The position numbers and the translations under genes are program-made. Positions 14,442 through 51,398 of a stretch of DNA of 64,000 nucleotides are shown piece after piece. Every line of letters begins with the position of its first letter. Position 1 is the stretch's first letter. This DNA comes from Clostridiales bacterium (GTDB lineage: Bacteria; Bacillota; Clostridia; Lachnospirales; Lachnospiraceae), in NCBI GenBank assembly GCA_012735495.1, contig JAAYHD010000026.1, positions 1 to 64,000 on the forward strand, written 5' to 3'. The notes beneath the pieces are model-generated. The model saw only the letters and a list, made by a program, of their open reading frames with translations, made no database searches and was not told the DNA's origin.

Positions 14442-14449
14442 GAAGCTTA

Positions 14450-14509
14450 TTGACAAAAGAGGGGCAAAGATTTATACTTTATATGCCCCCTCCCTATAGG
14501 GAGGGGGCA
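14450..14509 (+). promoter_or_regulatory. Promoter and CsoR-type operator of the copper operon
   Basis: A textbook sigma-A promoter: TTGACA (14450-14455), 17 bases, TATACT (14473-14478). Starting six bases after the -10, an 11-base perfect inverted repeat, TGCCCCCTCCC (14484-14494) and GGGAGGGGGCA (14499-14509), around TATA. CsoR regulators bind G/C-tract palindromes of this type, and the site covers the expected transcription start, so copper-free CsoR should block initiation. The assignment rests on the G/C-tract palindrome, its place and the adjacent csoR gene. Confidence 0.8.
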
Positions 14510-14544
14510 GAAAGAGCATAATCATGCCATGGAAAGGTGAAAAT

Positions 14545-14811
14545 ATGAACAAGGAACAGAAAAACGCCGTACTGACGCTTAAGACGGCAAAAGGACAGAT
14601 AGAGGCTGCCATAAGCATGATTGAAGAGGGCAGGTATTGCGTGGATGTCTCCAACCAGATTATTGCCGCCTTGGGGCTGCTTAAAAGGGCAAACCTTCTA
14701 ATCCTCAGGCAGCATATGGAGCATTGTGTCAAGGAAGCCTTTGAGAATAACAGGGGCAGCGAAAAAATTGACGAGATTATTGATATCTTATCCAAAATGA
14801 CAGGAAAATAA
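14545..14811 (+). CDS. csoR: Copper-sensing repressor CsoR
   Basis: 88 residues, the DUF156/CsoR family of all-helical metal-sensing repressors. The Cu(I)-binding triad Cys-His-Cys is present at C32 (GRYCVD), H57 and C61 (RQHMEHC), which separates it from nickel- or formaldehyde-sensing relatives. Copper binding releases the protein from DNA. ATG 14545 follows AAAGGTG; an ATG at 14524 is earlier but has no ribosome site. It lies first in an operon with copA (69 bases downstream) and copZ, and should repress itself through the palindrome at 14484-14509. Confidence 0.93.
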   Translation: MNKEQKNAVLTLKTAKGQIEAAISMIEEGRYCVDVSNQIIAALGLLKRANLLILRQHMEHCVKEAFENNRGSEKIDEIIDILSKMTGK

Positions 14812-14880
14812 GCGACGCAAAAAATCATGATTGCGATATTGATTATAAACATAATGTTAACAAGCATAAGGAGGTGAACC

Positions 14881-17112
14881 ATGGTTAATAAAACCTTTAA
14901 GATAGAAGGCATGACCTGCGCGTCCTGTGCCAGGGCGGTGGAGCGGGCCACCCGCAGGTTGGAGGGTGTAGCGAGCGCAAACGTAAATCTGGCGACCGAA
15001 AAGCTTGCTATAACCTTCGAGCCGTCGGTACTGAGCGTATCGGACATAAAGAAGGCGGTTAAAAATGCGGGATACAAAGCCGTGGAGGAAGACGGCGGAA
15101 AGAGCGGGGACAGCAATGAAAAAGAAAGAAGGCTCCTGTGGAGAAGATTTATTATATCTGTCATTGTTACGGTGCCTTTGCTTTATATTTCCATGGGACA
15201 TATGGCGGGGCTTCCGCTTCCCGGATTTATCGACCCGATGATGAACCCGCGGGCATATGCAATAACCCAGCTCATTCTAACCCTTCCGGTGGTGGCAGCG
15301 GGATACAGGTATTATATTGTGGGGTTTAAAACCCTGCTTAAGAGAAGCCCGAATATGGATTCCCTGGTTGCCATAGGAACAGGGGCGGCCGTGGTATACG
15401 GAATATATGCGATAGGCCGGATTTTCATGGGCGATACGGACTATGCCATGAACCTGTACTTTGAGTCTGCGGCGGTTATACTTACATTGATAACCCTGGG
15501 TAAATATTTTGAAACCGTATCAAAGGGAAAGACGTCGGACGCCATTAAAAAGCTAATGGGTCTTGCGCCCAAGACGGCAACGGTCATAAAAGACGATAAA
15601 GAAGTTGAGATACCGGTGGAAGAAGTCATGGTCGGGGATATTATTATCGTAAGACCCGGCGAAAGAATTCCCGTTGACGGGATTGTAATAAGCGGCGTCA
15701 CTTCCGTGGACGAATCCATGCTGACCGGTGAAAGCATTCCGGTTGAAAAGCATGAAGGGGACATTGTAACCGGGGCAAGCTTAAACAAAAACGGCAGTAT
15801 CCGGTATAAGGCGACCCGGGTGGGCAAGGATACGACCCTGGCTCAGATTATCAAGCTGGTCGAGGATGCCCAGGGCTCGAAAGCACCCATTGCAAAGCTG
15901 GCCGATATCATATCCGGGTATTTTGTTCCGATTGTCATGATTTTAGCGGTCCTTTCGGGCCTGGCCTGGTATGTTATCGGCGGGGAAAGCATAACCTTTT
16001 CATTGACAATTTTTATATCGGTACTGGTAATTGCATGTCCCTGTGCGCTTGGCCTGGCCACTCCCACGGCCATTATGGTCGGTACGGGGAAGGGAGCGGA
16101 GAACGGCGTGCTCATTAAAAGCGGCGAAGCCTTGGAAACTGCCCATAAGGTGGATACCGTCGTATTGGACAAGACCGGCACCATTACGGAGGGCAAACCA
16201 AAGGTGACGGATGTAATTGCAGCAGGGGGCATATCCGGGGAGACGCTGGTTATGCTGGCCGCTTCCGCCGAGATCGGCTCGGAGCATCCGCTTGGCGAAG
16301 CAATAGTGGAGCATGCAAAAAAAATGGGGCTTGATATTAAGGATGCCACGGAGTTTAAAGCAATCCCCGGACACGGCATTGAAGTAACCATAGAAGGCAG
16401 GCATGTGCTTCTCGGCAACCGAAAGCTTATGGACGACAGGAATATCTCCCTGGAAGAACTTGCGGAAGCATCCGACAGGCTTGCGAATGAAGGGAAAACC
16501 CCGATGTATGCCGCAATAGACAGTATGGCGGCAGGCATAATAGCCGTTGCCGATACTGTAAAGGCTACCAGCAAAAAAGCAATTGAAACCCTTCATAAGA
16601 TGGGAATAAAGGTTGTTATGATTACCGGGGACAACAGCAGGACCGCGCAGGCCATCGCAAGGCAGGTTGGAATAGACAGGGTGCTGTCCGAGGTGCTGCC
16701 GGAGGATAAATCCAACGAGATTAAGAAGCTTCAATCGGAAGGAAGCAAAGTGGCCATGGTCGGAGACGGCATCAATGACGCTCCCGCTCTTGCGCAGGCC
16801 GATATCGGCATAGCCATAGGCTCGGGAACGGATGTGGCCATGGAATCGGCGGACATTGTCCTTATGAGAAGCGATCTGATGGATGTATCCAAAGCAATAC
16901 AGTTGAGCAGAAGCACCATTCGCATTATAAAGCAAAACCTTTTTTGGGCTTTTGCCTATAATACGGTCGGAATACCCGTTGCCATGGGGATTCTTCATAT
17001 CTTTGGCGGACCCCTGCTTAATCCGATGATTGCGGGAGCGGCCATGAGCTTAAGTTCGGTTTCCGTGGTATCAAATGCCCTGCGCTTAAAGAGGTTTAAG
17101 CCAACCGTCTAG
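14881..17112 (+). CDS. copA: Copper-exporting P1B-type ATPase
   Basis: 743 residues, a membrane pump that exports Cu(I) using ATP. One N-terminal heavy-metal-associated domain has GMTCASC (C13, C16). Eight hydrophobic helices are expected; the sixth bears the copper-transport motif C386-P-C388 ([13 protein letters not shown]). The phosphorylation site is D430 in [12 protein letters not shown] and the hinge [22 protein letters not shown] follow. The CPC motif and the CsoR partner support copper rather than zinc or cadmium. Strong ribosome site AAGGAGGTG at about 14869. Only one HMA domain is present, where some relatives have two. Confidence 0.96.
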
Positions 17113-38084: not shown

Positions 38085-38125
38085 GATTGTTTGTATCAGT
38101 AAAGTTCTCATATTATATATAAAAC

Positions 38126-38164
38126 AAAAAGTGTAAAAACACTTAATGTGTTTTTACACTTTTT
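38126..38164. terminator. Bidirectional terminator ending the big leftward operon
   Basis: A perfect 17-base stem (38126-38142 with 38148-38164), loop TTAAT, with A and T tracts at both outer ends. Serves the acetyltransferase gene from the left and the nine-gene leftward operon from the right. Confidence 0.93.
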
Positions 38165-38229
38165 GCTTTGTCTTTTCTCTTTTTCTCATTATTATATGGT
38201 CATGCGCTTTTAAGAGCTAATATATCCAA

Positions 38230-39684
38230 TTACTTGCTTATAACAACACCGATGTTCTTGGCTCTGAAGGTTAAGCCGCCTGCTTCCGGATAAAGAGCGG
38301 GCCTGTCCTGCTTAACCAGTGATCCGTCATCTACAACGGATGCAACTTCCTTGCCGTCGATCTTAACGGTTATGGTAACCTTTGAATTATCCTCGCTGTT
38401 CTGCAGGGTGATTTCAAAGTCATGGGGCTGTCCGTCGCCCAAAGGCCATTCGTATTTGCCGAAAGCATCATCATAACCTGAGCGGCCAAGATAGAAGGTG
38501 TTCATGTCACCCCATGAAGTAAGGGAATATCCTCTCTGCCCGTCGGTCCAGCCTTTGTCTGCAAGGGCGGAACGAAGCAGGCACAAGAACTCGGAATCCC
38601 ACCAGGTTCCCTCTTCCTCGGACAGGTCGGTCTTGATGTCAGTAAGCTTAAGCGTAAACTTGAATACAGCATTCTGGACCTCTTTATTCAGTCTTACGGC
38701 AACCTTGTCTCCGCCGGGATTCAATGTAAGTCCGTCCGCTGTCAGGGTATAAGCGTCGCCGTTGTTTTCCCAGGCGGCAGGATCACCGAAATAATCTCCA
38801 GCCTGGACCACTTCAAGCTCGGCGCCGGAGGTGCTGCCTGTGGCTGATGGAGCATATGCTTCGTCATATCCGTAAATCTTTGCGCCCAGGTATTTAACCC
38901 TAAAGTTAATACCGCCGGCATCAGGGTATAATGAAGGCCTTTCTTTCTTAACCAGTGAGCCATCATCAACTACGGATGCCAGTTCGACCCCGTCAACAAC
39001 CACCTTAAGGTAAACCTTGGTGTTGTCTGCATTGTTGGTTACGGTGAATTCAACCTTGTGGGGCTGTCCGTCCGCCAAAGGCCAGCTGAATTCGCCAAAA
39101 GCATCGTCATAGCCCGAACGGCCAAGATAAAAGGTTTTCATGTCGCCCCAGGATGTGATGCAGTAACCTGCCTGAGGATCGGATTCCCTGAAAGCCGGTC
39201 CCGGATAATTTGCCCTGACAAGCAACAGGAACTCGGAATCCCACCATGTACCTGCTTCCTTATCCAGATCCGTAGCTATATCCGTCAGCTGAGCTGTAAA
39301 TTTTACATTTACGTTCTGGAAATCACCGGGAAGCATTACAGCGCAGAAGTCGCCGTAATAAGCATTATCAAAGATGAGCGTGTTATTCTTGATGGAGTAC
39401 TCTCCTCCGTCATCTTCCCACTGGGTTGAGCCGTCAAGATAAGCTCCCAGGTCTACATCTGTTGGCTCCGCAAATTCACCGGCATTAACATCGGTTGCTG
39501 GTTCCTGGGCCGGCTCCTGCTGATCCGGTTTCTCTTCACCGGCATCTTCAACAGGTGCGGTTGTAGGAGCCTTGGTAGGCTCGGGGGTGGTATCTTCTTT
39601 ATCATCCTTGGATTTGCATGCCGTCAGGGAAAGAACCAATGTCAGGACGATTAAAGCTGATACTAATTTCTTGAAAATCTTCAT
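38230..39684 (-). CDS. Lipoprotein with two tandem lectin-like modules
   Basis: 484 residues. Signal peptide with lipobox LTAC (cysteine about 23), a Pro/Glu/Thr-rich linker to residue about 70, then two copies of a module of about 190 residues. Each copy has GTWWDSEFL, SWGDMxTFYLGRSGYDDAFG, DGQPH and VASVVDDGSLV, ending in a RPSLYPDAGG-type segment. The fold pattern suggests concanavalin/LamG-like beta sandwiches, which bind polysaccharide. It may hold the glycan at the cell surface. It is the last gene of the leftward operon; a repeat of its DNA makes the gene prone to recombination. Confidence 0.72.
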   Translation of the reverse strand: MKIFKKLVSALIVLTLVLSLTACKSKDDKEDTTPEPTKAPTTAPVEDAGEEKPDQQEPAQEPATDVNAGEFAEPTDVDLGAYLDGSTQWEDDGGEYSIKNNTLIFDNAYYGDFCAVMLPGDFQNVNVKFTAQLTDIATDLDKEAGTWWDSEFLLLVRANYPGPAFRESDPQAGYCITSWGDMKTFYLGRSGYDDAFGEFSWPLADGQPHKVEFTVTNNADNTKVYLKVVVDGVELASVVDDGSLVKKERPSLYPDAGGINFRVKYLGAKIYGYDEAYAPSATGSTSGAELEVVQAGDYFGDPAAWENNGDAYTLTADGLTLNPGGDKVAVRLNKEVQNAVFKFTLKLTDIKTDLSEEEGTWWDSEFLCLLRSALADKGWTDGQRGYSLTSWGDMNTFYLGRSGYDDAFGKYEWPLGDGQPHDFEITLQNSEDNSKVTITVKIDGKEVASVVDDGSLVKQDRPALYPEAGGLTFRAKNIGVVISK

Positions 39685-39734
39685 AACCTTTCCTCCTTAT
39701 TATTGTTTTATTGTTGTACATGGATATATGTAAA

Positions 39735-41855
39735 TTATTTTATCCTGTCGATTCCCTTGCTTTCACCGGTCCAAACGTTCATCCGGCCGGTCGAGAAGCT
39801 GCCTGCTTCCTCCTGGTAAAATCCGGTCATTCCGTATTCGAAGGTGGAGTCCTCAACGCTAAGGACCTCCTCGTCATTGACAGCAAGGGTTAATTTGTTT
39901 CCGATTGCGCTTGCCTTAAGCTGGTAAGTGCTGCCGATACGCCAGTTGTAACCGGCTTTGGCAAGAACCCTGGTTCCGAAATTCTTAAGTGAAATAACAA
40001 CCTCACCCTGTTTTCCGAAGCCGAGAAGGTATGCGCATTCGGCGCCCTTGCCCCGGACTATAAGTCCCTTGTTTTCACCGGAAAGCGGTGTAATATCGGC
40101 TTCCACAATAGTGTCCCTTGCATAGAAGTTGCCGGTATATACCTGGCATTCCTGCTCGGATGTCACCACAAGCTTTCCGTCAATTATTTCGCCCTTGCAC
40201 TGGTTCAGCGAGAATGGTGTTACCTGGGCGAATTCGCACGCCTGCAGGGACATGTCTATGGAGTACCTGGCCTCGCCTGTCACAGTAAAATCGTCAAGGA
40301 ATAACCGGCCAAATACTCGGTTTGCCGTTTCAGCAGGGGTGAGGATCTTAAAGCCTAATTCCGCAATCTGGTCTCCACCGGTGTCCGGTATGGTAAAGTC
40401 TATGGAATTCCATTCACCGGCTTTAAGCTCTATTTCTTCGATTTCAATAAATGTATCTCTCATGGCCGTCCGGATGTACGGGATTACATGTACAGCCCCC
40501 TCCAGCCAGACTTCATAAAACAGCTTGAATGATGCCTTCTGGCCGCTGAATACCGTCGGGGAGAATACCGGTTTATATCTTTCGTCGTCAAAGTCAGCCC
40601 GGCGGTAGAAGGGCTTGTAATAAACCCTGCACTGATCGGCATGAAGTATGCGGTCGACGATTATCTCAAGGCTTCCCTTCCCGCTGTAGGCTTTTTCATA
40701 TGAATGGCGCTTCATGAACCGGATTTCATTGGACAGCCTTATTCCATGGGTGGAACCCGGAAGCTCAAAGTCGAAGAGAATGTCTCCGTCATTGGGCCTT
40801 TTGATTTCTTCGGGCATCTTTTCATCGGCAAGCATATAGGCAATCTGGGCAAGATCCTTTACATAAGTGGGAACATCCATGATGTTCAGATAGCCGGATA
40901 TTCCTGACGTAATAATGACGTCGTTGATCGGATCCCTGTATGCCTTTTTGATATTGTCCAGCCCGTAGAATACTCCCGCTATGCTTCCGACGCTGCCGGC
41001 ATTGCAGTCGGTGTCCCAGCCGCACATTGTGGCTATTTCCACGGTCCGGTTGAAATCCTTGCCGTAGAGCAAAGCCAGTACGCATACACCCGCGTTGGGA
41101 ATTACATGGCATGCGCCGGGATATTTGTCATATCCCCAGTTGTCTATCAGATACCGCATGCAGCTTCTGAAATCGTCGGGGTTTTTCCTGTAAAAATCAC
41201 GGACGGCGTTTACCACCTGTGCATATGTACAGTCTTCGGGTATCTGGCGTAATCCGGCATCAATTATTTCGTCAATGGTTTCAGCTGTAAATGCCTGGGC
41301 AATGCAGGCTGCTATGAAGCCTCCGCCGTATACGGCGTTTCCGTCGTGGGAAACATGAGCCGCCTTCATGGCATACTCGGCTGCCTTTTCGGGATTTCCG
41401 GGCCAGATGAATCCCCATGTATCAACGAATATCTGGCCGCCTATCTGCTCTGACAGGACTTTTCCGTTGGTTTCCATGCTTCCCGACAGAGGAGCAGGGA
41501 TGCCCTTTTTTAGATTCAGGTAGGTGGTATGGCAGGTGCTTATGCCTTCACCGCCCCACCAGAACATGCCGATGCCGTTCCTGGCATAATTAAGCCATGC
41601 CCTGGCAACCAGCCCGGAAGACATTTCGCTTTTAACGCCGCTGTCAATAAGCCCCCTGAGGAAATATACCGGACCGTTGATGTCGTCATCGGCGGCGAAA
41701 TTCCTGTAGCGCTTTATGTATTCGGTTATATCTCCGTATACGGAAGCTATCCTGTCAAAATCCCAGGGAGCGGGCTCAACCGGTGCGCCCAGCCTTATCC
41801 CGACATTCTTTCCGAGAAAACCGGCATAAAGCTTGTTTATATAATCCTTTACCAT
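39735..41855 (-). CDS. ADP-ribosylglycohydrolase-family protein with C-terminal sugar-binding-like extension
   Basis: 706 residues. The N-terminal about 340 residues follow the ADP-ribosylglycohydrolase (DraG) fold: LGKNVGIRLGAPVE, a first metal motif ADDDING where the family has TDDT, and a second motif GWDTDCNAGSVGSIAGV that keeps the metal-binding aspartates. The remaining about 360 residues are beta-rich with no clear family and resemble two lectin-like modules. No signal peptide. Members of this family in carbohydrate operons may cleave other glycosides than ADP-ribose. Follows its shorter paralogue by 13 bases. Confidence 0.75.
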   Translation of the reverse strand: MVKDYINKLYAGFLGKNVGIRLGAPVEPAPWDFDRIASVYGDITEYIKRYRNFAADDDINGPVYFLRGLIDSGVKSEMSSGLVARAWLNYARNGIGMFWWGGEGISTCHTTYLNLKKGIPAPLSGSMETNGKVLSEQIGGQIFVDTWGFIWPGNPEKAAEYAMKAAHVSHDGNAVYGGGFIAACIAQAFTAETIDEIIDAGLRQIPEDCTYAQVVNAVRDFYRKNPDDFRSCMRYLIDNWGYDKYPGACHVIPNAGVCVLALLYGKDFNRTVEIATMCGWDTDCNAGSVGSIAGVFYGLDNIKKAYRDPINDVIITSGISGYLNIMDVPTYVKDLAQIAYMLADEKMPEEIKRPNDGDILFDFELPGSTHGIRLSNEIRFMKRHSYEKAYSGKGSLEIIVDRILHADQCRVYYKPFYRRADFDDERYKPVFSPTVFSGQKASFKLFYEVWLEGAVHVIPYIRTAMRDTFIEIEEIELKAGEWNSIDFTIPDTGGDQIAELGFKILTPAETANRVFGRLFLDDFTVTGEARYSIDMSLQACEFAQVTPFSLNQCKGEIIDGKLVVTSEQECQVYTGNFYARDTIVEADITPLSGENKGLIVRGKGAECAYLLGFGKQGEVVISLKNFGTRVLAKAGYNWRIGSTYQLKASAIGNKLTLAVNDEEVLSVEDSTFEYGMTGFYQEEAGSFSTGRMNVWTGESKGIDRIK

Positions 41856-41868
41856 TTGGTTACCTCCG

Positions 41869-42855
41869 TTATCTGATAAGGTCGCTCAGGCTTTCAGCGA
41901 CTGTTCTGATAGTCAAATCCTTAGTAAAACGCAAACAGGTTCCGGTCGGATAATTTGTTTTTTCAATCCATGCCGCAGGGATGCATTTTGCGCCTCCCCT
42001 GGCACCAAGGATTGCTCCCACAATTGCTGAAACCGTATCCGCATCCCTGCCGGAATTTCCGCTTAGGAATATACCGTAACGGAAGTCTCCCTTTGCCATG
42101 AGGAAATATGCAAAGGCCGATACTACGGCTTCCGCAACCGCCGCCTTGTACTGGCAGCGCAGTTCGTCATGCAGAGGCATCCAGCACTTGAAGAAATCAT
42201 AACCGCCTTGTTCCAGGATACCCAGCATTACATCGAAGTTATGTCTGAGCCATGTTCCTTCCGGTATGCATTTTAATGCTTCCTGAAGGATCTCTTCGTC
42301 GGTCGCATCCACCATGGCAGCAGCGACCGCTACAGCCACGGCCTGCGCCGCCCAGATTCCTTCACCGCAGTGACTGATTTCCGCGTCTCTCCTGGCCAGC
42401 TCCTTTGCCCGTTCGAAATCGCCGGCGCATACTATTCCGATGGGGGATATCCTCATGGCAGCGCCGTCACTGTTGGCATATGCGTTATACATGCCGGTAT
42501 AGGGTGCATGAAGCCCTTTTTTCAGATTCTCCGCCGCTTCCTTTTCGCTGGCGCCTCCTCTCGGAAATTCATCCTGGGTTATGATATATTTCTTCCAGCC
42601 TTCTTCAAAATCCTTTGTACCGGGATTGCCTCCATGGTCAATAAGCATCTTTGCCGTAAACAAGGCGAACTCGGTGTCGTCCGTACTCCATGCTGCCCCC
42701 TTGCTTAAGTCAACCATCATGCCGTAGTCCTGGTGGTTTTCGGGCTTGCGGCATGCGTCCCCGAAGGAATCGCCTATTGCCAGCCCGGCAAGGGCGCCCA
42801 GTGCCTTGTCATCCCTAAGTTCCTTGTTATTTATCAAATCATTCCTGGTAAGCAT
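41869..42855 (-). CDS. ADP-ribosylglycohydrolase-family protein
   Basis: 328 residues, one-domain ADP-ribosylglycohydrolase family. The metal-binding signature WSTDDTEFALFTA (first pair of Asp) and SGNSGRDADTVSAIVGAILGARGG (second set) are both intact, so it is probably an active binuclear-magnesium hydrolase. No signal peptide. Substrate may be ADP-ribosyl-amino acid or another N- or O-glycoside. Lies between an esterase and its larger paralogue in the leftward operon. Confidence 0.82.
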   Translation of the reverse strand: MLTRNDLINNKELRDDKALGALAGLAIGDSFGDACRKPENHQDYGMMVDLSKGAAWSTDDTEFALFTAKMLIDHGGNPGTKDFEEGWKKYIITQDEFPRGGASEKEAAENLKKGLHAPYTGMYNAYANSDGAAMRISPIGIVCAGDFERAKELARRDAEISHCGEGIWAAQAVAVAVAAAMVDATDEEILQEALKCIPEGTWLRHNFDVMLGILEQGGYDFFKCWMPLHDELRCQYKAAVAEAVVSAFAYFLMAKGDFRYGIFLSGNSGRDADTVSAIVGAILGARGGAKCIPAAWIEKTNYPTGTCLRFTKDLTIRTVAESLSDLIR

Positions 42856-42875
42856 TCATATACCTCTCTGATAGG

Positions 42876-44006
42876 TTATTTTCTGTTCTGAAGATTCTGC
42901 GTAAAAAGCCATTCGTACAGGTCGGGCCTGGAATAAGCGGGTGTCCAGGTATCATGGGAGAGGAAAGGATAAACCGTCAGCTTGAAATATTCATGTCCCT
43001 GGCCGCACAGCTTCTCCACAATCAGGTTGACATTCTTGAAGGGTACGGTATCATCAATTGCTCCGTGGAACATCCAAATCGGCATATCCAGGATGCCTGA
43101 AAAATCATAGCTGTTTGTTCTGCCGCATACAACTGCAATTGCAGCAAACGTATCGGGCATTGCCAGTGCCTGCTTCCATGTGCCTCTGCCGCCCATGGAT
43201 AAGCCCGTAAGGTACATCCTGTCCGGATCAATATTGTATTTTTCAAGGTTCTTTTCTATAAATGCCTTCAGCTTGGGCTCCTCGTCGTTGGTGTCGGCCC
43301 AGTGGGAATTGCCGGGACACTGGGGAGCTATCATTATGGCGTCAAGGGAGCCGGTTTCCATGATGTACTTGGGAACGCCGTAGCTTAAGAGCTCGTTCAG
43401 GTCGTCGCCCCTTTCGCCTATGCCATGAAGGAAGTAAATAACCGGCCATTTTGTTTCCTTGTCATCTGGGTCATAACCCTCGGGAAGATACAGAACATAG
43501 TTGTAATACTCGCTGTCGCCGTATAAAAGCTGGAACACTTCTTTTCCCACAGGGTTCTTGATCTGCTGTATGTCGCGGTTTCCAACCAGCATTTCCATTG
43601 AGATCTTGGAGCCCTTAAAGGTGTAAGTTATTTCGGAAAGCCTTCCCTGGACATTTTCCGTAAGCTGCTTTGCCAGTTCGTTGTACTCCGCTCCGGTCAG
43701 TATGGCTCCGGTGTCCTTGTTGGGATAGAACTTTGCAAACAAGTCATCAACTGCCGGCTCGTCCTGGCTGTCCGGTTCATCCTGTTGGTTATCGGATGTT
43801 GGCGTTTCATCGGATGGGGATACGGTATCGGGGGTCTGATTTTCATTGGCTGTCTCATCATTCTTGCCGTTTTCATCGGTTATAACTTCCTGCTGATTTT
43901 CAGGTTCCTTTACCATATCTTCACCTTCTTTCTTGTCTGATGCTTTTTTGCCGCATCCGGTCAGGAAAATGACCAGGCATAGCATACATATCAATATTTT
44001 TTTCAT
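42876..44006 (-). CDS. Secreted lipoprotein esterase (alpha/beta hydrolase)
   Basis: 376 residues. Lipobox LTGC (cysteine about 18), an acidic linker to residue about 95, then an alpha/beta-hydrolase domain. The nucleophile is in TGLSMGGRGTW; the acid is probably D of HGAIDDTVPF and the histidine is in LSHDTWTPAY. LHGIGERGDD is the oxyanion region. This resembles carbohydrate or feruloyl esterases of PHB-depolymerase type. It probably removes acyl groups from a polysaccharide or small glycoside outside the cell before uptake. Follows the binding protein gene by 26 bases. Confidence 0.82.
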   Translation of the reverse strand: MKKILICMLCLVIFLTGCGKKASDKKEGEDMVKEPENQQEVITDENGKNDETANENQTPDTVSPSDETPTSDNQQDEPDSQDEPAVDDLFAKFYPNKDTGAILTGAEYNELAKQLTENVQGRLSEITYTFKGSKISMEMLVGNRDIQQIKNPVGKEVFQLLYGDSEYYNYVLYLPEGYDPDDKETKWPVIYFLHGIGERGDDLNELLSYGVPKYIMETGSLDAIMIAPQCPGNSHWADTNDEEPKLKAFIEKNLEKYNIDPDRMYLTGLSMGGRGTWKQALAMPDTFAAIAVVCGRTNSYDFSGILDMPIWMFHGAIDDTVPFKNVNLIVEKLCGQGHEYFKLTVYPFLSHDTWTPAYSRPDLYEWLFTQNLQNRK

Positions 44007-44032
44007 TTTAAGCTCCTTTCATTTTGCCGCTT

Positions 44033-45754
44033 TTACCGTTTTGCCTTAATCTGCCTGTTGACTTCTTCTTCCCAGGCCTCTATGCCGTAAGCATTGACCT
44101 TATCCACAGCCTCTTTGTAAAGGCGTATGCACTCTTCCTCGGAAGAAGCCATTATTATGCGGTTAATTTCGTCTTTTATAATGGCCGCGCATTTTGAGCT
44201 GGCTATAGCTGCTTCAGTTTCAGCCTGCATTACTATATCAATCTCGGAATAGTCCTTCCAGAAGGTTCCCTTCCAGTCTTCATGCCAGTTGAATACAGGA
44301 TCCTGCTTAATGATTAAATCTCTCGGGTCTGCTCCGGCATCGGTGGAGTAGTACGGCGCAAATCTTGCGAATGCCGGCTGTCCGTCGGTTGTGTATGTCG
44401 GGAAGTTAATTACGCCGTATAAGGAACGGATGCCGCGTTTTACGTTGTATTCGGGATTAGCCTTGATCTTTGCGTCTATTTCCGCGTTTATGTCCCTCTT
44501 GCCGTCGGCATTGATGATATAGTCCTCGCCTTCAATGCCCCAGCCGTGAAGCACGAGACCTTCATCGGAGTATAAGAACTCCAGCAGGCGTGCGATGCGG
44601 TTTGCATGGGGAGAGGTCTTCATTATCATGAATGCCTTGCTTCCCGTATAAGCCGAGTTGTACTGCCAGACGTGATCAACCCCGTCAGCCCTTAACTGCT
44701 GTGGAATGTAGATGATATGGGAGGTCTTTTCATTGTTCAGCAAAGCCTTGTTGGCTTCATAGATGTAATAGTAATTGCCTATGAAGGAGAATACCTTTGC
44801 CTTGTTCAACTGTCTTATAAACTGGTCGGAGGTTTGTACCGGCGCGTCCTCATATATATATCCCTCACGGTACAGTTCGTTCATGAACAGCAGCCAGGGC
44901 AGGGCATGTTCGGCTTTTAAGCCGTAAGTATAATTCTCGCCGTCCAGGGTTACGAACAAGCCGCCCCTGTAATTGCATTTATAACCGTACATTGAAAGTC
45001 CTGCCCAAAGGATGTCACCGGCGCTTCCCTTATCCATGGATATTGCGTAATATCCGTCCTCTGTCGAGTATTTTGCTCTGAAATTGTCCAGGGCCTCCTT
45101 GTAAGCGTCGAAGGATGTTATCTTGTTATTATAAATTTCCTTTACAAGAGGATACTGGACATAAAGTGTGCTGTGCCACGGAAGCTCTTCCTGGGCACGG
45201 TTGGGATCGCTGGAATCCTCGGGATGAACCTCGCCCTCACGAAGCAGGTCTTTGTTCTCCGTTAAGTACAGGAGCTGACCGTTTTCGTTTTTGAATATTT
45301 CGATCAGGGATGAGTTCATCTCATAAACGGTAGGAGCGTATTTCTTAAGCAGCGGCTCAAGGTCAACCAGGTCCCCGGTATCCAGGTAATCATAGAAGGT
45401 ACCGTCTCTTTTCATAACCAGCACGTCGGGATAATCCCTGGAAGCCATGAGCATCTGGAGCTGGTCGGATTCAATTCCCTGGATCTCAATTGTGGTTCCC
45501 GTGATTTCCGCTATCTTTTTCAGAACCGCGCTGTCACTGGGTGAAGGATTCTGCATGTCTGCGACCATAATCTTGATTGTTATGGGGTTTTGCCTGTCCA
45601 GCTCCTGCAGTTCTTCAAAGGTCATGTTTTCTTCGTTTTCATATGTAGTACCGGTATTTTCATCCGTTTTTTTCTTGCATCCCGAAAGTACCGATGCTGC
45701 TGTTATCAGTATGATTATTAATGTAAAGAAGCCTGTTATGCGTCTCTTGTGCAT
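44033..45754 (-). CDS. ABC transporter solute-binding lipoprotein, LipO-type
   Basis: About 573 residues with a lipobox (SVLSGC, cysteine about 26), the large type of family-1 binding protein that works with LplB/YtcP-like permeases. The rest is a two-lobe periplasmic-binding fold with DSAVLKKIAEITGT and AFMIMKTSPHANRIARLLEFLYSDEG. ATG 45754 follows GGGAGGTG; ATG 45781 does not. The gene lies 114 bases after the second permease; a possible internal promoter (TTGATA-N16-TAAAAT at 45864-45837) and a short ACAGGA/TCCTGT hairpin there may raise its expression. Ligand unknown. Confidence 0.88.
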   Translation of the reverse strand: MHKRRITGFFTLIIILITAASVLSGCKKKTDENTGTTYENEENMTFEELQELDRQNPITIKIMVADMQNPSPSDSAVLKKIAEITGTTIEIQGIESDQLQMLMASRDYPDVLVMKRDGTFYDYLDTGDLVDLEPLLKKYAPTVYEMNSSLIEIFKNENGQLLYLTENKDLLREGEVHPEDSSDPNRAQEELPWHSTLYVQYPLVKEIYNNKITSFDAYKEALDNFRAKYSTEDGYYAISMDKGSAGDILWAGLSMYGYKCNYRGGLFVTLDGENYTYGLKAEHALPWLLFMNELYREGYIYEDAPVQTSDQFIRQLNKAKVFSFIGNYYYIYEANKALLNNEKTSHIIYIPQQLRADGVDHVWQYNSAYTGSKAFMIMKTSPHANRIARLLEFLYSDEGLVLHGWGIEGEDYIINADGKRDINAEIDAKIKANPEYNVKRGIRSLYGVINFPTYTTDGQPAFARFAPYYSTDAGADPRDLIIKQDPVFNWHEDWKGTFWKDYSEIDIVMQAETEAAIASSKCAAIIKDEINRIIMASSEEECIRLYKEAVDKVNAYGIEAWEEEVNRQIKAKR

Positions 45755-45868
45755 TAAATACACCTCCCGATATATTTCCACGTCTGAGTGGCATGTTTTT
45801 TAATTTGTGTTGATTTATAACGCTATATAAACAGGAATTTTATTTGCGTCCTGTTATTTATCAATTAT

Positions 45869-46798
45869 TTAACCCTTCATCGAACCTACCATGATGCCCT
45901 TGACAAAGTATTTCTGCAGGAAAGGATATACGCATATGATAGGAACAACAGTAACAACCGTTATAGCCATTCGAAGGGACAGGGGATCGGCAGTAACCGC
46001 CTCACCGTGGAATATCTCAAACATTGTCGCCCTGTCAATCATTTTTTCACCTTCGGCCTTCTTGATCATCTGCATGCATATGTACTGCAGGGTTCTCAGT
46101 TTGGGATCGGTGGTGTAGTACAGGGTGTCACGGTACGAGTTCCACTGCATAACCGCCGAGTAAAGGGCAACGGTGGCGTAAATAGGTTTTGATACCGGCA
46201 TCAGGATCTTGAAGAACACCTTCAAATCGTGGGCACCGTCTATTTTTGCCGCTTCAAGCAGGTCCGCCGGTACGGATTTGAAATACGTCCTGAACAGCAC
46301 CACATACCAGAGGTTGATTATGTGCGGTATGATATAAACCCAAAAGGTGTCGTACAGGTTAAGGTTAAGGTACAGCATGTAGGTCGGAATAAGGCCGCCG
46401 CCTCCGAAGAACATGGCAAAGAAGAAGAATGCCTTAAGGGGCTTGTACAGCAGGAAATCGCTCCTTGTGAACAGGTAGGCAAACATGGAGGAGCATAATA
46501 CCGTCAGAAAAGTGCCCAGTACTGTTCTTGACACGCTTAGGAGAGTGGCGCGGAAGAGGTCTTTCTCCATGAATATAAGCCGGTATGCCTCCGTGGAGAA
46601 TACGCGGGGATAAAGCCATATTCCGCCCAGCTCGGTATCCGCCGGGTGATTGAATGATACGGCCAGTACATAAATGAAAGGATATAACATTGATATTCCG
46701 ATTATGCCGAGGATAATGGCCAGTATCGTATCAAATATTATGTCGCCGGTTTTCTTCTTTTTCTTTTTCCGGATTATTTCATTTTCGTTCTTTCCCAT
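45869..46798 (-). CDS. ABC carbohydrate permease, YtcP/LplC-like
   Basis: 309 residues, six hydrophobic helices, MalG-type. The cytoplasmic EAA loop, EAAKIDGAHDLKVFFKILMP, contacts an ATPase. No ATPase gene is present in the operon, so a shared MsmK-type ATPase from elsewhere must serve it, which is common in Firmicutes. The start of the gene lies 12 bases after the other permease. Confidence 0.9.
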   Translation of the reverse strand: MGKNENEIIRKKKKKKTGDIIFDTILAIILGIIGISMLYPFIYVLAVSFNHPADTELGGIWLYPRVFSTEAYRLIFMEKDLFRATLLSVSRTVLGTFLTVLCSSMFAYLFTRSDFLLYKPLKAFFFFAMFFGGGGLIPTYMLYLNLNLYDTFWVYIIPHIINLWYVVLFRTYFKSVPADLLEAAKIDGAHDLKVFFKILMPVSKPIYATVALYSAVMQWNSYRDTLYYTTDPKLRTLQYICMQMIKKAEGEKMIDRATMFEIFHGEAVTADPLSLRMAITVVTVVPIICVYPFLQKYFVKGIMVGSMKG

Positions 46799-46810
46799 AG
46801 TCCGCCTCCA

Positions 46811-47764
46811 TTACCACAGTGAGTATTCTGTCGTCTTTTGCGCGATCTTATTGGTAATATATACCAGAATGAAACCCAGCACGGTCTGAATCAGGCTGAC
46901 GGCAGTCGAATATGAATACATTCCCATTGATATACCTATCTTGTAGGTATATGTTTCTATGACTTCGGCTACATGGCTTGTAACCGCATTTCCGAGCATG
47001 TAAGACGCGTCAAAGCTTGCGGAGAACAAGCCGGACATATTGGTTATCCAAAGTATCATGGCTGTGGGCAGAAGGTTCGGTATTGTAATGTATATAATCC
47101 GCTTGATTCTTCCGCAGCCGTCAATTGCCGCGGCTTCATATTGCTCCTGGTCTATTCCTGCCAGTGTTGCCAGGTAAATGATAGCGCCCCAGCCGACTTC
47201 CTTCCATACTCTTACGAATGTTGCGAGGAACCAGAACAGGTAGGGCTTCTGCCAGAACTTATAAGGCTGGTCGACAATACCCATGTTCTGAAGCAAGTCG
47301 TTTATCGGGCCGTTGGTTCCCAGAAGCTCCAGGAATATGTTGGCCACAACGACGAAGGATACAAAGTGCGGCAAATATGTAAGGGTCTGAATGGTCCTTT
47401 TGAACACCTTGTGAGATATTTCGTTTATCATGAGCGCCAATATAATCGGCAGGGTGTTGATGGCCAGCAGGTTTAAGGAGCTCATTGCAAGGGTATTGCG
47501 TATAATCTTCCCCAGGTCGGGGTCGGTGAAGAACTCCTTGAAGTAGTGCAGCCCGACAAATTCGCTGCCAAAAACCCCTCTTGCAGGCTTGTATCTTACG
47601 AAAGCCATCAGCCATCCGTATAAGGGCCCGTAAAAGAAGATGCCGATGTATATAATACAGGGTATGGCTATGAGAAACAGGTAGCGCTGGTTTTTCATTA
47701 TCTGCCATTTTCTTGCTCTGGCTGCCGTCCTGTCGGACGTTTTAGCATGATTTTTGCCAATCAT
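46811..47764 (-). CDS. ABC carbohydrate permease, LplB-like
   Basis: 317 residues, MalF-type half of the permease heterodimer. The EAA loop is YEAAAIDGCGRIKRIIYITIPNLLP. A Lys/Arg-rich cytoplasmic N-terminus precedes the first helix (FLIAIPCIIYIGIFFYGPLY). Starts 29 bases after the DUF4387 gene, so it is in the same operon. Named by similarity to the lipopolysaccharide/oligosaccharide-type permease of Bacillus; the substrate is not inferred from this. Confidence 0.9.
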   Translation of the reverse strand: MIGKNHAKTSDRTAARARKWQIMKNQRYLFLIAIPCIIYIGIFFYGPLYGWLMAFVRYKPARGVFGSEFVGLHYFKEFFTDPDLGKIIRNTLAMSSLNLLAINTLPIILALMINEISHKVFKRTIQTLTYLPHFVSFVVVANIFLELLGTNGPINDLLQNMGIVDQPYKFWQKPYLFWFLATFVRVWKEVGWGAIIYLATLAGIDQEQYEAAAIDGCGRIKRIIYITIPNLLPTAMILWITNMSGLFSASFDASYMLGNAVTSHVAEVIETYTYKIGISMGMYSYSTAVSLIQTVLGFILVYITNKIAQKTTEYSLW

Positions 47765-47793
47765 TATATACTCCTTTCAGATCCCATAGAGTA

Positions 47794-48120
47794 TTATTCC
47801 AATATGGATTCGTCAAACTCTATTGAAAGCAGCGGCGCATGCTGCTGCGCTCCGTATACGTCCCGGTCCCCCGATGTGCCGGAGGAAACCTTCCTGTTAT
47901 ATGTAATCTTTATGCCCATTGCCTGGTCGAAATAAACCAACTCCGTTATGTCGGCAACATTTATATTATACGCTTTGGCAATGGATTCTCTAGTGATAAT
48001 ATTTGCCTTTTTTACTGCCTCATATTCTTTTCTGTCGGAGAAGAGAATATCCAGGGTAATTGAGAAAGGGCCGGCATTTTTGCTTCTTATAACCTTTGCG
48101 ACGTCATATAATTTTTTCAT
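47794..48120 (-). CDS. DUF4387 family protein
   Basis: 108 residues of the DUF4387 family, which in genomes regularly accompanies an AtuA-family gene. The pattern LYDVAKVIRSKNAGPFSITLDILF is characteristic. Its start overlaps the AtuA stop by four bases (ATGA), so the two are translationally coupled and may form a complex. Function is unknown; the AtuA partner suggests a hydratase or lyase-like activity on an acid. Confidence 0.85.
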   Translation of the reverse strand: MKKLYDVAKVIRSKNAGPFSITLDILFSDRKEYEAVKKANIITRESIAKAYNINVADITELVYFDQAMGIKITYNRKVSSGTSGDRDVYGAQQHAPLLSIEFDESILE

Positions 48121-49514
48121 TCATTTTCACCAGCCTTCTTCGTTTTCTTACCCTTGGCATAGGTTTCGTATGTTACGGGGAACATGGATTTTCCGTCCGG
48201 TATCTGCAGCAGATGGTAAACTGAAAATTCGTATACCGGGCCAAACGGGATATCACTGGGGGCAAACGGAAAAGCCAGGTTGCCGGCCGTGGTCTTGCGG
48301 CCTTCGAAGTCGCAGTGCAAAAACGTGGAGCGGACATTTGCGCAGATCGCGTTGGCCATCTCCTGGGTCTTTGCCAGGGCTTCAAACAGGACCGCCACTT
48401 CATGTCCCCTAAACTCCTGGAGCTCCTGGTCCCCCATTACACCGTTGATGCCGTAGTTGTAGAAGTTAATCCGGTAATCCTCTTCCGGTATCTCGCGGAT
48501 GTATTCCTTTACGCTTTTTGCAACCTTTTCCTCAATCTCCTCAAGCCTTGATATTAAAATCGGATCTCTTACGGCTCCTATGACAAATGTCCTGTAAGCT
48601 ACCTGCCTGGATCCTTCAAGCTTTATTATGTACTTTTCATCCGGTATGTAGCGGCTTCCCTTTACTCTTACCGATTCCCCGTCATCCATGGTGAAGGTGC
48701 ACTCCGAAAGATCCAGGATGAAGCCGGGGCCGTGGAATACGCAGGGATTTTCCTTTTCATAGAATGTATGGGCCGCCACACTGGTTATATTGCAGTGGCG
48801 GACAGGATTAAGAGTGCATATGGTAAATGAGTCTTCATATAATGTGCCCAGTACACTGTCTTTTGTCGTTCCCGGTTCGGCGCACAACGCTCCGCACTCA
48901 AGGATTTTCCCCATATGATAGGATAGTCCGGGGTCAAAGCCCTTATAAATGCCGACAGCCGCAAAAATGGACGGATCATAGGTCCTTCCGCAGACAATAA
49001 TATCCGCTCCGCCTTTCAGCGCTTCTATAACAGGTTCATGGCCTATCTGTGCCACGATTGATCCGGTGCTGTCCACTGTTTCTTCCGTAAGATCCGGGAT
49101 GTTTGACCCCATGGAGAAGATGCGGTTGTTGGCAATGGCATCCTTAATTATCGATTTATCAACATCGGTATATATGACCGCAAGCTTCGCATCCAGCCTG
49201 TGTTCCTTAAGGATATCCTCCACAATTTCCAGTGTCCAATTGACGTGGATCCTGGAACCTGCTCCGCCGGCCGATCCTATGATAACCGGTATATGTCTTT
49301 TTAGTCCCTCGGGTATGATTAGGGACAGGTCTTTTCTGACCGCCATACGGCTTACTATGCTGACACCTGCTCCAAGCTTATGTGGCCCGGCATCGGTTGA
49401 ACCCGCGTCAACAACAATCGCGTCCGGATTCATAGCCAATCCGTTTCGGAACGACTGCTCGGGAAAACCGTAGCCCAACATGCCGCATGGAGATAAAATA
49501 CTGCATTTGTTCAC
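48117..49514 (-). CDS. AtuA family protein (acyclic terpene utilisation-type, DUF1446)
   Basis: 465 residues of the AtuA family, in Pseudomonas part of acyclic terpene degradation and elsewhere found with unknown substrates. Landmarks: SPCGMLGYGFPEQSF and VVDAGSTDAGPHKLGAG near the start, IGSAGGAGSRIHVNWTLEIV, GADIIVCGRTYDPSIFAAV, and a C-terminal half with GHEVAVLFEALAKTQEMANAICANVRSTFLH. The absence of other atu genes means terpenes are unlikely. It is the first gene of the leftward operon, controlled by the promoter/operator at 49542-49588. I propose it modifies an intermediate released by the operon's hydrolases; this is inference. Confidence 0.85.
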   Translation of the reverse strand: MNKCSILSPCGMLGYGFPEQSFRNGLAMNPDAIVVDAGSTDAGPHKLGAGVSIVSRMAVRKDLSLIIPEGLKRHIPVIIGSAGGAGSRIHVNWTLEIVEDILKEHRLDAKLAVIYTDVDKSIIKDAIANNRIFSMGSNIPDLTEETVDSTGSIVAQIGHEPVIEALKGGADIIVCGRTYDPSIFAAVGIYKGFDPGLSYHMGKILECGALCAEPGTTKDSVLGTLYEDSFTICTLNPVRHCNITSVAAHTFYEKENPCVFHGPGFILDLSECTFTMDDGESVRVKGSRYIPDEKYIIKLEGSRQVAYRTFVIGAVRDPILISRLEEIEEKVAKSVKEYIREIPEEDYRINFYNYGINGVMGDQELQEFRGHEVAVLFEALAKTQEMANAICANVRSTFLHCDFEGRKTTAGNLAFPFAPSDIPFGPVYEFSVYHLLQIPDGKSMFPVTYETYAKGKKTKKAGENE

Positions 49515-49541
49515 TTTACATCAGCCCTTGTATTATAGTCT

Positions 49542-49588
49542 ATTTGTTTAACAATTAGAATTATATCACGGTAAAAGACAGGTGTCAA
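49542..49588 (-). promoter_or_regulatory. Promoter and FadR-type operator of the leftward operon
   Basis: On the minus strand TTGACA (49588-49583), 17 bases, TATAAT (49565-49560): full consensus. The operator TTGTTTAACAA (49544-49554), which matches TNGTNNNACNA, starts five bases past the -10 and covers the start point. About 30 bases before the AtuA start. Confidence 0.82.
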
Positions 49589-49708: not shown

Positions 49709-49754
49709 TTGACAACGGCTTGAAATAAATGTATAATCTATTTGTCTAACAAAT
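49709..49754 (+). promoter_or_regulatory. Promoter and FadR-type operator of the gntR gene
   Basis: TTGACA (49709-49714), 17 bases, TATAAT (49732-49737): full consensus, pointing right. The operator ATTTGT-CTA-ACAAAT (49740-49754) is a perfect 6-base inverted repeat, TNGTNNNACNA type, at the transcription start. It implies that the regulator represses itself as well as the operon. Confidence 0.85.
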
Positions 49755-49796
49755 GTGATATATTTTGTAAAATATTTTCTTTGCACGGAGGTTAAT

Positions 49797-50489
49797 GTGA
49801 GATTTCCAACCATAGTTAATGAGCGATTATCCGATAAGGTGGTCAACGTAATAACGGAAAAAATTAAAACGGGAGAATTGAAACCGGGTGACAAGCTTCC
49901 CAGCGAACCGGAGCTTGCCAATGCTTTGCAGGTAAGCCGCGGGGTCCTGCGTGAGGCCCTGACAGCCCTGCAGGCCAGGGGTATTATTTACAGGAAACCG
50001 AAGGAAGGCACTTTCATCAACTCGGATGCGCTTGCGGAACTGAATGACAGCTGGGAAATTTCAATGAAGCAGGCCACATACCTGGACCTGATCGAGGTAA
50101 GGGAATGTCTTGAGATACGCATGGTGGAGAAGGTTATAGACCTGGCGACCGATGAGCAGATAGATGAGCTTTATGAGCTTATTGGTTCGGATGAGGCAGC
50201 CGAGGGGGACCGCTCTACGGACTACTATTTCCACTATCGCCTTGCGGAATTTTCCCGCAACATTATCTTTGTGAGCTTTATTGATACCTATTATGAGATA
50301 TTTAAGGAAATTTCAAAAATAACATCCCAGTATATATCCAGAAAAGAGGGTATATACAATGAGCATTTGGCCATTGTGGAAGCCATCAAGGCGAGGGACA
50401 AGGAACTGGCAAAGAACAGGATCCGCCACCACCTGCACATGGTCAAGGATTTTCTTCAAACCCATGACCTGGCAAATATTAAGGATTAA
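49797..50489 (+). CDS. GntR-family (FadR subfamily) transcriptional regulator
   Basis: 230 residues. The N-terminal winged helix has LKPGDKLPSEPELANALQVSRGVLREALTALQARGIIYRKPKEGTFI, then an all-helical FCD/FadR-type ligand domain from about residue 85 (DLIEVRECLEIRMVEKV) with likely metal-binding His residues in the HLAIVEAIKARDKELAKNRIRHHLHMV region. It starts at GTG 49797 with GGAGG six bases upstream. The ligand, by family, would be an organic acid. The two operators around it suit repression of the AtuA operon and itself. Confidence 0.9.
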   Translation: MRFPTIVNERLSDKVVNVITEKIKTGELKPGDKLPSEPELANALQVSRGVLREALTALQARGIIYRKPKEGTFINSDALAELNDSWEISMKQATYLDLIEVRECLEIRMVEKVIDLATDEQIDELYELIGSDEAAEGDRSTDYYFHYRLAEFSRNIIFVSFIDTYYEIFKEISKITSQYISRKEGIYNEHLAIVEAIKARDKELAKNRIRHHLHMVKDFLQTHDLANIKD

Positions 50490-50528: not shown

Positions 50529-51398
50529 ATGAAAAACCAGAGTAAGAAAACAGTTATTATAAAAGAATATTTTTATATAACGATAGGTGCCCTGCTGGTA
50601 ACCGTCGGCGTATATTACTTCAAATTCCCGAACAATTTCAGTATAGGCGGCGTAACAGGCGTCGGCATCCTGTTAAGCAGTGTCCTGGGCGGCAGGATTT
50701 CATCCGGCACGATAGTGCTGGTCATTAACATGGCCCTGCTGGTCCTGGGATATATTATGTTCGGAAGAAGCTTCGGAATAAAAACCGCATACGGAAGCCT
50801 GATTCTTTCCGTCGGGCTCAAGGTGCTGGAGATAGTAAACCCGTTGGAGCATCCGCTGACCAACGAGCCCGTCATTGAGCTGTTTTTCGCGGTGGCCCTT
50901 CCCGGAATCGGCGCGGCCATACTGTTTAACCTGGGAAGCTCGACAGGCGGCACGGATATCATAGCAATGATTTTAAAGAGGAAGACCAACATCAATATAG
51001 GGCAGGCCCTTTTAGTAACCGATATTATACTGACTTTATTGACCTTCCCCATATTCGGCATGCTGACGGGACTGTTGTCCGTGGCGGGACTGTTTACCAA
51101 GTCCGTTGTGGTCGACAATATCGTGGAAGCGCTGAACCTGTGCAAATACCTTACGGTCATATGCGACGATGCGGAAGATATCTGTGACTTCATCATAAAG
51201 AAATTGAACAGGAGCGCCACAATTTACGACGCCAAGGGGGCGTTCACGAACCACAAAAAGAAGATAGTCCTTACTGTAATGTCCCGTTCGGAAGCATTGC
51301 AGCTGCAGCATTATATTAAAAGGAACCATCCCGAGGCGTTCATCCTCATTACGAACACCAGTGAAATAATCGGCCGGGGATTCAGGGGATATTTATAA
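50529..51398 (+). CDS. YitT-family membrane protein
   Basis: 289 residues, six hydrophobic segments and a C-terminal DUF2179 domain of about 80 residues (RSATIYDAKGAFTNHKKKIVLTVMSRSEALQLQHYIK). The helices include the glycine-rich GGVTGVGILLS and LGSSTGGTDIIAMIL. Members are annotated as YitT proteins; their transport role is unproven. Begins 39 bases after gntR, in the same direction, so it may be cotranscribed with the regulator. Ribosome site CGGAGA. Confidence 0.85.
   Translation: MKNQSKKTVIIKEYFYITIGALLVTVGVYYFKFPNNFSIGGVTGVGILLSSVLGGRISSGTIVLVINMALLVLGYIMFGRSFGIKTAYGSLILSVGLKVLEIVNPLEHPLTNEPVIELFFAVALPGIGAAILFNLGSSTGGTDIIAMILKRKTNINIGQALLVTDIILTLLTFPIFGMLTGLLSVAGLFTKSVVVDNIVEALNLCKYLTVICDDAEDICDFIIKKLNRSATIYDAKGAFTNHKKKIVLTVMSRSEALQLQHYIKRNHPEAFILITNTSEIIGRGFRGYL

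Follow-up and report, generated by a model that had tools for sequence, protein, structure and literature searches.

A conserved Lachnospiraceae operon joining a citramalate lyase-related AtuA/DUF4387 pair, ABC permeases and ADP-ribosylglycohydrolase-family proteins, most likely for an acidic riboside

The window analysed here, 64,000 nucleotides of contig JAAYHD010000026.1 from a Clostridiales bacterium of the Lachnospiraceae (assembly GCA_012735495.1; 2.24 Mb in 69 contigs), holds a real, conserved operon of nine minus-strand genes at positions 38230-49514, most likely for an acidic riboside. Its products belong to the Pfam families AtuA, DUF4387, BPD_transp_1 (two ATP-binding cassette, ABC, permeases), SBP_bac_1, an alpha/beta-hydrolase esterase family and ADP_ribosyl_GH (two ADP-ribosylglycohydrolase-family, or ARH, proteins, named ARH1 and ARH2); the ninth had no Pfam match at E 0.001. 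We consider it probable that the operon serves the uptake and degradation of a riboside whose aglycone is a citramalate- or citrate-type acid. In the predicted order of steps, the esterase and the lectin-like lipoprotein encoded last would act outside the cell, in deacylation and capture, and the binding lipoprotein and the two permeases, powered by a stand-alone ATPase, would import the glycoside. ARH1 and ARH2, as nutritional ribosidases, would then free ribose inside the cell for a ribokinase, which many relatives encode in the cluster and which would here be encoded elsewhere. AtuA/DUF4387 would then split the freed beta-hydroxy acid to give acetate and a 2-oxoacid, the latter being pyruvate if the acid is citramalate.

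The complete gene order, AtuA-DUF4387-LplB-YtcP-SBP-EST-ARH1-ARH2-lipoprotein (SBP, solute-binding protein; EST, esterase), is repeated in four other loci (L002, L003, L009 and L010; L numbers denote loci and G numbers genomes). An earlier reading of the sequence alone (the sequence-only reading) had held that this gene mix matches no pathway known to it. As stated, this is not supported, since a core of the mix recurs in many Paenibacillus and Bacillaceae loci. That reading had also taken the nine genes for one gene run and had proposed to look for co-occurrence of AtuA/DUF4387 with ARH and permease genes; the run is indeed conserved, and the co-occurrence is seen over many genomes. We found no description of an AtuA/DUF4387-ARH-ABC cluster in the literature searched, which did not cover all journals. 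Within the window's own family, AtuA is patchy, because a match at E 1e-50 was found in only 10 of 397 sampled genomes from 334 genera (the window's included) and the sole same-genus genome of the sample, G654, has none; horizontal transfer is our guess. The record of L002 is entitled Anaerolineaceae bacterium MAG4, yet its isoleucyl-tRNA synthetase is 87% identical to that of the window's genome, so its label or bin looks wrong. The latter synthetase is also 64-76% identical to the one of a Lachnospiraceae metagenome-assembled genome (MAG) and 66% identical to part of the one of a Blautia MAG, which makes membership of the Lachnospiraceae likely.

The acid part of the proposed pathway comes from the AtuA/DUF4387 pair. 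AtuA aligned with chain A of PDB entry 9erq at 441 bits (E 3.1e-131; 203 of 434 aligned residues identical) and DUF4387 with chain B at E 1.6e-29. The chains of 9erq and 9evf were named citramalate lyase subunits A and B (CmlA/CmlB) by their depositors, and we take the name from the PDB entry. The conversion of the freed acid by this pair, as the sequence-only reading had it, is thus supported by comparison and narrowed to a relative of CmlAB. The operon's pair likewise comprises an AtuA and a DUF4387 subunit, both homologous to the solved ones, but it belongs to a separate clade and lies inside an ABC/ARH operon without adjoining glm, mal or fumarase genes. In a tree of 96 AtuA rows, the ARH/ABC-linked clade comprises 81 rows with a support of 100 (78 labelled as ARH/ABC-linked, plus L029, L052 and L068, in which ARH genes were seen); the glm/mal/fumarase rows and L080 group at 93, and L137 falls outside the clade on a very long branch. 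A tree of 30 rows again gave this clade at 100/100 and did not resolve the glm/mal/fumarase rows. The AtuA of the window therefore does not fall with the copies found in methylaspartate or mesaconase contexts. Between the 81 clade rows and eight CmlA-type rows (9erq_A and L082 being near-copies, and L137, L079, L080 and L081 left out), 97 positions are conserved and 14 are switched.

The copies outside the clade have telling neighbours. The 9erq_A chain branches beside the AtuA of an Escherichia coli record with adjoining glmS-glmL-glmE-mal genes, Prevotella has glmS-glmL-glmE-mal-AtuA-DUF4387 with fumarase genes, and Klebsiella and Neorhizobium have AtuA-DUF4387 with fumarase. Within the window's family, AtuA lies next to glmS-glmL-glmE-mal in L130, in a mal-AtuA-DUF4387 run in L129 and with fumarase subunits in L131; the AtuA proteins of L130 and L129 offer ready same-family comparison enzymes for the ARH-linked pair. 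A gene of DUF1446 beside mal is noted in passages of PMC4682846, where the fate of citramalate is left open, and passages of a further paper place the AtuA gene of Prevotella intermedia next to methylaspartate ammonia-lyase; they also list an ARH gene, as part of a hemin locus that is separate from it. Over 101 loci scanned, glm, mal and fumarase genes were present in L082, L129, L130 and L131 only and in none of the ARH-type loci, for which reason we rejected membership of the methylaspartate pathway. None was found either among the ten operon-region and ten flanking proteins of the window that were scanned.

Further constraints on the acid come from related ARH operons that have another lyase in the same slot. 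ARH proteins of at least 200 bits occur in 90 loci of a set of 108, with AtuA in 78 of them, CitF in two, both in none and neither in ten. These counts lean towards AtuA because it was the route to 80 of the 108 loci, and presence counts are lower bounds since the picking of open reading frames (ORFs) may lose or cut genes; the set predates L188, L191, L193 and the plasmid loci. Searches with ARH1 and ARH2 served as a check. The ARH1 search, which gives the least biased count, matched five of 396 genomes of the phylum (the window's included), and in each of the five the run includes a lyase, which is AtuA/DUF4387 in three genomes and CitF/CitE in two. The ARH2 searches were less clean: a lyase is present in close relatives but missing from the ten of 90 loci mentioned above.

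L167 is an ARH operon that lacks AtuA. Its genes run RbsK-ARH2-ARH384-CitD-CitE-CitF-CitC-CitXG, with successive gaps of 69, 20, 32, 0, -4, 38 and 157, and are divergent from LacI-LplB-YtcP-SBP. L143 and L188 combine a kinase, two permeases, four ARH genes and CitC-D-E-F-XG with a protein of 431-435 aa, not identified by family, in the binding-protein position. In L193, CitF and a CitE/carrier fusion accompany four ARH genes, two permeases and a binding protein. CitF exceeds its curated cut-off in L167 and L143 (759 and 595 vs 501) and CitE does so only in L167. For L188 and L193, the Cit genes received their names by being compared with those of L167, and Pfam also identifies both CitF genes and the CitE of L193. 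The CitCDEF-XG citrate/citramalate lyase thus fills the lyase slot next to permease and ARH genes in L143, L167 and L188 (as CitF/CitE in L193), although it belongs to other Pfam families, has an acyl-carrier subunit and is absent from the operon of the window. Among 32 genomes of the family of G1050, CitE occurs in one, in the ARH operon itself, and among 38 genomes of the order of G275 in four, of which two are ARH operons (G275 and G1203) and two are not. A second, deep AtuA lineage, with DUF4387, is found in comparable operons in L191 and L137.

On rhizobial plasmids, a LacI-permeases-SBP-ARH-ARH2-UgpC run is followed by genes for a coenzyme A (CoA)-transferase and a CoA-ester lyase in six of 14 loci (L194, L197, L200, L201, L202 and, in pieces, L204), and by the transferase alone in L199; the 14, some of them near-copies, were selected out of 26 records that match ARH2. 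This resembles the CoA-transferase and citramalyl-CoA-lyase route, which differs from the window's system in being CoA-dependent and is absent from its operon. Routes that start from citramalate are named in passages of PMC4682846; they include a CitDEF-kind citramalate lyase and the CoA-transferase/citramalyl-CoA-lyase pair. What these systems would share is the cleavage of a citramalate- or citrate-type acid, either unbound or linked as a thioester to a carrier or CoA, to an acetyl unit and a 2-oxoacid, and by this comparison the lyase step is well supported.

As for the sugar, a gene for a PfkB kinase (120 bits or more) is present in 64 of the 108 loci and in 61 of the 90 with ARH genes. 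When 15 cluster kinases were scored with the ribokinase model TIGR02152 (cut-off 299.65), 13 passed, one of them, L142, from a lyase-less locus; L039 misses the cut-off by 0.4 bits, and L195, on an Agrobacterium plasmid, reaches 279. Besides the ribokinase gene of L195, plasmid locus L205 has one between ARH genes. This linkage in relatives suggests that the sugar is ribose, which would fit the ribosyl-bond chemistry of the ARH family, and the kinases point to ribose instead of an oligosaccharide cargo. Near the heads of Paenibacillus clusters we also noticed proteins of 650-660 aa that resemble fusions of a LacI-type regulator to a ribokinase (Table 1), which may bind or modify their own inducer.

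The two ARH proteins score 182 and 162 bits with PF03747 (cut-off 26.2), and they are its only matches in the assembly. ARH1 aligns with MJ1187 and DraG. The model of ARH2 (mean pLDDT 91) matches MJ1187 (fold match 1t5j), ARH3 and CBM66 in Foldseek searches, its last module being CBM66-like by fold, and its motif GWDTDCNAG is exact in 70 of 76 ARH2 proteins. Both proteins have the acidic motifs that, we assume, bind metal in this family. ARH-family proteins are two-metal hydrolases, and the characterised members act on ribosyl bonds. The operon's two ARH proteins share the acidic metal motifs of the ADP-ribosylglycohydrolases DraG, ARH1 and ARH3, and the model of ARH2 also their fold, but they differ from them in their nutrient-uptake context and, in the case of ARH2, in extra sugar-binding-like modules and the DTDCNAG motif. 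A partly similar set is the yegTUVW genes of E. coli, in which an ARH-family protein is encoded together with a transporter, a GntR regulator and a PfkB sugar kinase, and which are not known to include a lyase or a binding-protein-dependent ABC system. Comparison supports the earlier proposal that two such hydrolases would act between import and acid conversion. Single ARH2 relatives lie next to a GH32 gene (L172:2337-3959) and to a gene for a mandelate-racemase/muconate-lactonizing-family protein (L169:12287-13405), which suggests that the subfamily of ARH2 may have broader roles.

The two permeases and the binding lipoprotein are the parts of a CUT1-like importer, and none of the nine genes encodes a cognate ATPase. 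The sequence-only reading was right on this point and on uptake without an ATPase of its own; the MalK OB-fold family is matched once in the assembly, by a lone ATPase gene flanked by a YitT gene and a gene for a PucR-type regulator. CUT1 systems of the LplB/YtcP type share an MsmX-type ATPase. The operon resembles them in its two permeases, large binding lipoprotein and separately encoded ATPase, and differs in its predicted acidic-riboside cargo; we infer that it is served by the stand-alone ATPase. A YitT-family membrane gene also adjoins the operon's regulator gene (window 50529-51398), the one beside the lone MalK-type ATPase gene being at L192:7149-8093. The binding protein has a possible alternative start at an internal ATG 27 bases downstream of its GTG.

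In the esterase, the motifs GLSMGG, GAIDDT and SHDTW, at residues 268, 315 and 350, make it plausible that a Ser-Asp-His set is retained and would be catalytic. A homologue occurs in six of 90 AtuA runs. The halves of the end lipoprotein (residues 63-270 and 281-482) are identical at 109 of 208 alignment columns; this lectin-like domain is single-copy in three of the four relatives (L003, L009 and L010) and tandemly duplicated here. Its model, built on five sequences (mean pLDDT 72), shows lectin- and CBM66-like folds.

The AtuA and DUF4387 genes overlap by 4 bases, and the other gaps range from 12 to 87 bases. Of the range of 12-114 bases given earlier, the lower end stands, apart from the overlap, and the upper end is 87 on the coordinates used here; 114 would fit a start of the binding protein at its internal ATG. 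The nine genes, the divergent regulator gene, the promoter at their head and the terminator at the end of the nine were confirmed where the sequence-only reading had placed them (Table 1), the terminator-like stem being the longest found. Shuffled sequences also give many such sites (22.8 promoter-like sites, standard deviation 4.6, vs 33 in the region; 15.2 terminator-like sites, standard deviation 4.1, vs 17), so weight rests only on the perfect promoter matches and the long stem. A weaker promoter-like site makes a second transcription start ahead of the binding-protein gene possible.

The divergent gene, read earlier as a FadR-type regulator, belongs to the GntR/FCD family by Pfam. Two putative operators, TTTGTTTAACAATT and TTTGTCTAACAAAT, both near-palindromic, each lie just 3' of the -10 box of one of the two divergent 12/12 promoters, and no other exact site occurs in the assembly. 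If one mismatch is allowed, the pattern has four matches vs seven for a backward control, so weaker operator-like sites carry no meaning. The sequence TTGTNNAACAA lies 36-72 bases upstream of AtuA in eight loci (L002, L003, L009, L010, L011, L074, L127 and L128), which include the near-copies L009 and L011, and a looser pattern is found upstream in 14 of 95 loci vs 3.85% of 2000 random pieces. The simplest reading is a local GntR/FCD repressor that would also control its own gene: bound just 3' of both -10 boxes, it would release the operon when its ligand arrives.

Table 1. Coordinates of the operon, its regulatory features and the fusion genes of related loci
Feature	Position	Strand	Basis and remarks
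Surface lipoprotein, two tandem lectin-like domains	38230..39684	-	lipobox-like LTAC
ARH2, ARH domain (~1-345) + beta-sandwich modules	39735..41855	-	PF03747 E 2.2e-53; AADDDIN, GWDTDCNAG
ARH1, ADP-ribosylglycohydrolase family, 328 aa	41869..42855	-	PF03747 E 2.2e-47; TDDTE, GRDADT
Secreted lipoprotein esterase, alpha/beta hydrolase	42876..44006	-	PF00756/PF02230; PHB-depolymerase-like below cut-off; lipobox-like LTGC
Solute-binding lipoprotein, GTG start	44033..45781	-	PF01547 E 2.8e-7; lipobox-like LSGC
YtcP/UgpE-type ABC permease	45869..46798	-	PF00528; GlcU/UgpE-like NCBIfam matches below cut-off; YtcP is the name of the sequence-only reading
LplB/UgpA-type ABC permease	46811..47764	-	PF00528; UgpA-like NCBIfam matches below cut-off; LplB is the name of the sequence-only reading
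DUF4387 small lyase subunit (CmlB homologue), 108 aa	47794..48120	-	PF14330 E 1.3e-39
AtuA-family large lyase subunit (CmlA homologue), 465 aa	48117..49514	-	PF07287
GntR/FCD regulator, divergent	49755..50489	+	PF00392 + PF07729; top NCBIfam match NanR, below cut-off
Operon promoter TTGACA-17-TATAAT, 12/12	49560..49588 (49588-49560)	-	promoter-pattern scan
Regulator promoter TTGACA-17-TATAAT, 12/12	49709..49737	+	promoter-pattern scan
Weaker promoter-like site, 10/12	45864-45837	-	ahead of binding-protein gene
Putative operator TTTGTTTAACAATT	49543..49556		directly 3' of operon -10 box
Putative operator TTTGTCTAACAAAT	49741..49754		directly 3' of regulator -10 box
Terminator-like stem, 20 pairs, T-rich tail	38123..38167	both	called on both strands
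LacI-ribokinase-like fusions	L055:2992-4953, L057:7950-9902, L059:8012-9973, L068:7984-9966, L072:8018-9973		L072 ribokinase part 357-647

Several observations weigh against a riboside of a citramalate- or citrate-type acid. The nine-gene operon has no ribokinase gene, and the best ribokinase homologue elsewhere in the genome scores 242.8 vs a cut-off of 299.65. We know of no natural citramalate riboside, and no description of citramalate glycosides was found in the literature searched, which left some journals out. Citramalate itself may not be the substrate of AtuA/DUF4387, because the AtuA of the window has 14 clade-specific changes from CmlA, including the lysines K46 and K218. The exchange involves two lyase families (AtuA-type and CitE-type) and not three, CitE and the CoA-ester lyase being homologous; moreover, the CitE of L143 is below the citE cut-off, and the plasmid CoA-transferases and CoA-ester lyases are family-level matches that reach no specific cut-off. 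ARH2 relatives are also found beside GH2, GH32 or mandelate-racemase-family enzymes or beside nothing telling. ARH2 alone is not tied to one substrate, since ten of the 90 ARH-bearing loci lack AtuA and CitF and seven of the 14 plasmid loci lack any CoA-route gene, five of these (L196, L198, L203, L206 and L207) having no ribokinase gene either.

In an alternative to which we give roughly one chance in five, a citramalate-type acid would be borne by a glycoside or oligosaccharide built on some other sugar (hexosyl, fructosyl or amino sugar), with the ARH proteins as general glycosidases and the kinase linkage in relatives incidental. It would account for the missing ribokinase gene here, the GH32, GH2 or fucosidase-like neighbours of ARH2 relatives, the resemblance of the last ARH2 domain to levanase CBM66 (by fold, and weakly by sequence) and the PIG-L deacetylase gene after ARH1 in L071, but 13 of 15 cluster kinases over the ribokinase cut-off and the ribosyl bonds cut by characterised ARH-family members argue against it, and we regard it as unlikely. 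That PIG-L-type de-N-acetylase (L071:13211-14491), with a long N-terminal part, is encoded 3' of AtuA-DUF4387-ARH1; breakdown of bacillithiol or malyl-glucosaminide was considered for it and dropped, because it is a single locus and malate needs no such lyase. A methanopterin-type hydroxyglutarate riboside was dropped on chemistry. In the Blautia cluster of L074, a 612-aa protein (14201-16039) has no Pfam match at E 1e-5 and looks glycoside-hydrolase-like by eye. Far less probable is the removal of ADP-ribose, or nucleotide-sugar salvage, by ARH1 and ARH2 with the other genes incidental: the family name and the metal motifs suggest it, but ABC permeases, a binding protein and a lyase accompany ARH genes over many genomes, the two proteins have no PF03747 companion in the assembly, and the ribokinase linkage implies free ribose. 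Action of AtuA/DUF4387 on a terpenoid is the least credible option. It follows from the name of PF07287 only and is opposed by the strong CmlA match and the closeness to glm/mal-linked copies. Acyclic terpene (Atu) utilisation would be expected to have geranyl-CoA carboxylase and acyl-CoA genes nearby, and no carboxylase or acyl-CoA family was seen in the ten region proteins or the ten flanking proteins scanned. Several transcription units, with a separate promoter before the binding-protein gene and with lyase-permease and esterase-ARH parts serving partly different substrates, are very improbable too; the 87-base gap and the 10/12 site speak for them, whereas the gene order is retained in four loci, lyase, transport and ARH genes form one run in many Bacillales, and promoter-like sites are common in shuffled sequences as well.

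A bolder and rather unlikely version of the acidic-riboside pathway would concern alpha-D-ribofuranosides of citric-type acids, with the ARH proteins as alpha-ribofuranosidases and the AtuA/DUF4387 clade as a new lyase for tricarboxylic aglycones, K46 and K218 perhaps holding the extra carboxylate. The use of the two lysines as a sign of citrate was weakened by the deep AtuA lineage of L137 and L191, which is without both; L081, an 8.9-kb contig with no ARH gene on it, has lysine at both switched positions. The boldest substrate candidate is ribocitrin, which we take to be a Streptomyces product, a ribofuranoside of citric or hydroxycitric acid, and which would be the first known citric-type-acid riboside of this pathway. 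In a passage of a paper that cites a 1982 structure paper, it is described as a dextransucrase inhibitor.

The acidic-riboside reading gives a testable job to a widespread and unexplained gene set that combines a transporter with hydrolases whose name comes from ADP-ribose and a lyase whose name comes from terpenes, and the exchange of lyase systems in one slot constrains the chemistry of the acid without an assay. If it is true, ARH-family proteins would also be food enzymes, and bacteria would be eating a class of acid ribosides of which we found no description in the literature searched. Should the citric-acid ribofuranoside version be true, one would expect such glycosides to be common in soil and in the guts of herbivores, and a single slot would have recruited two lyase families in three biochemical forms, acting on the free, the carrier-bound or the CoA-bound acid.

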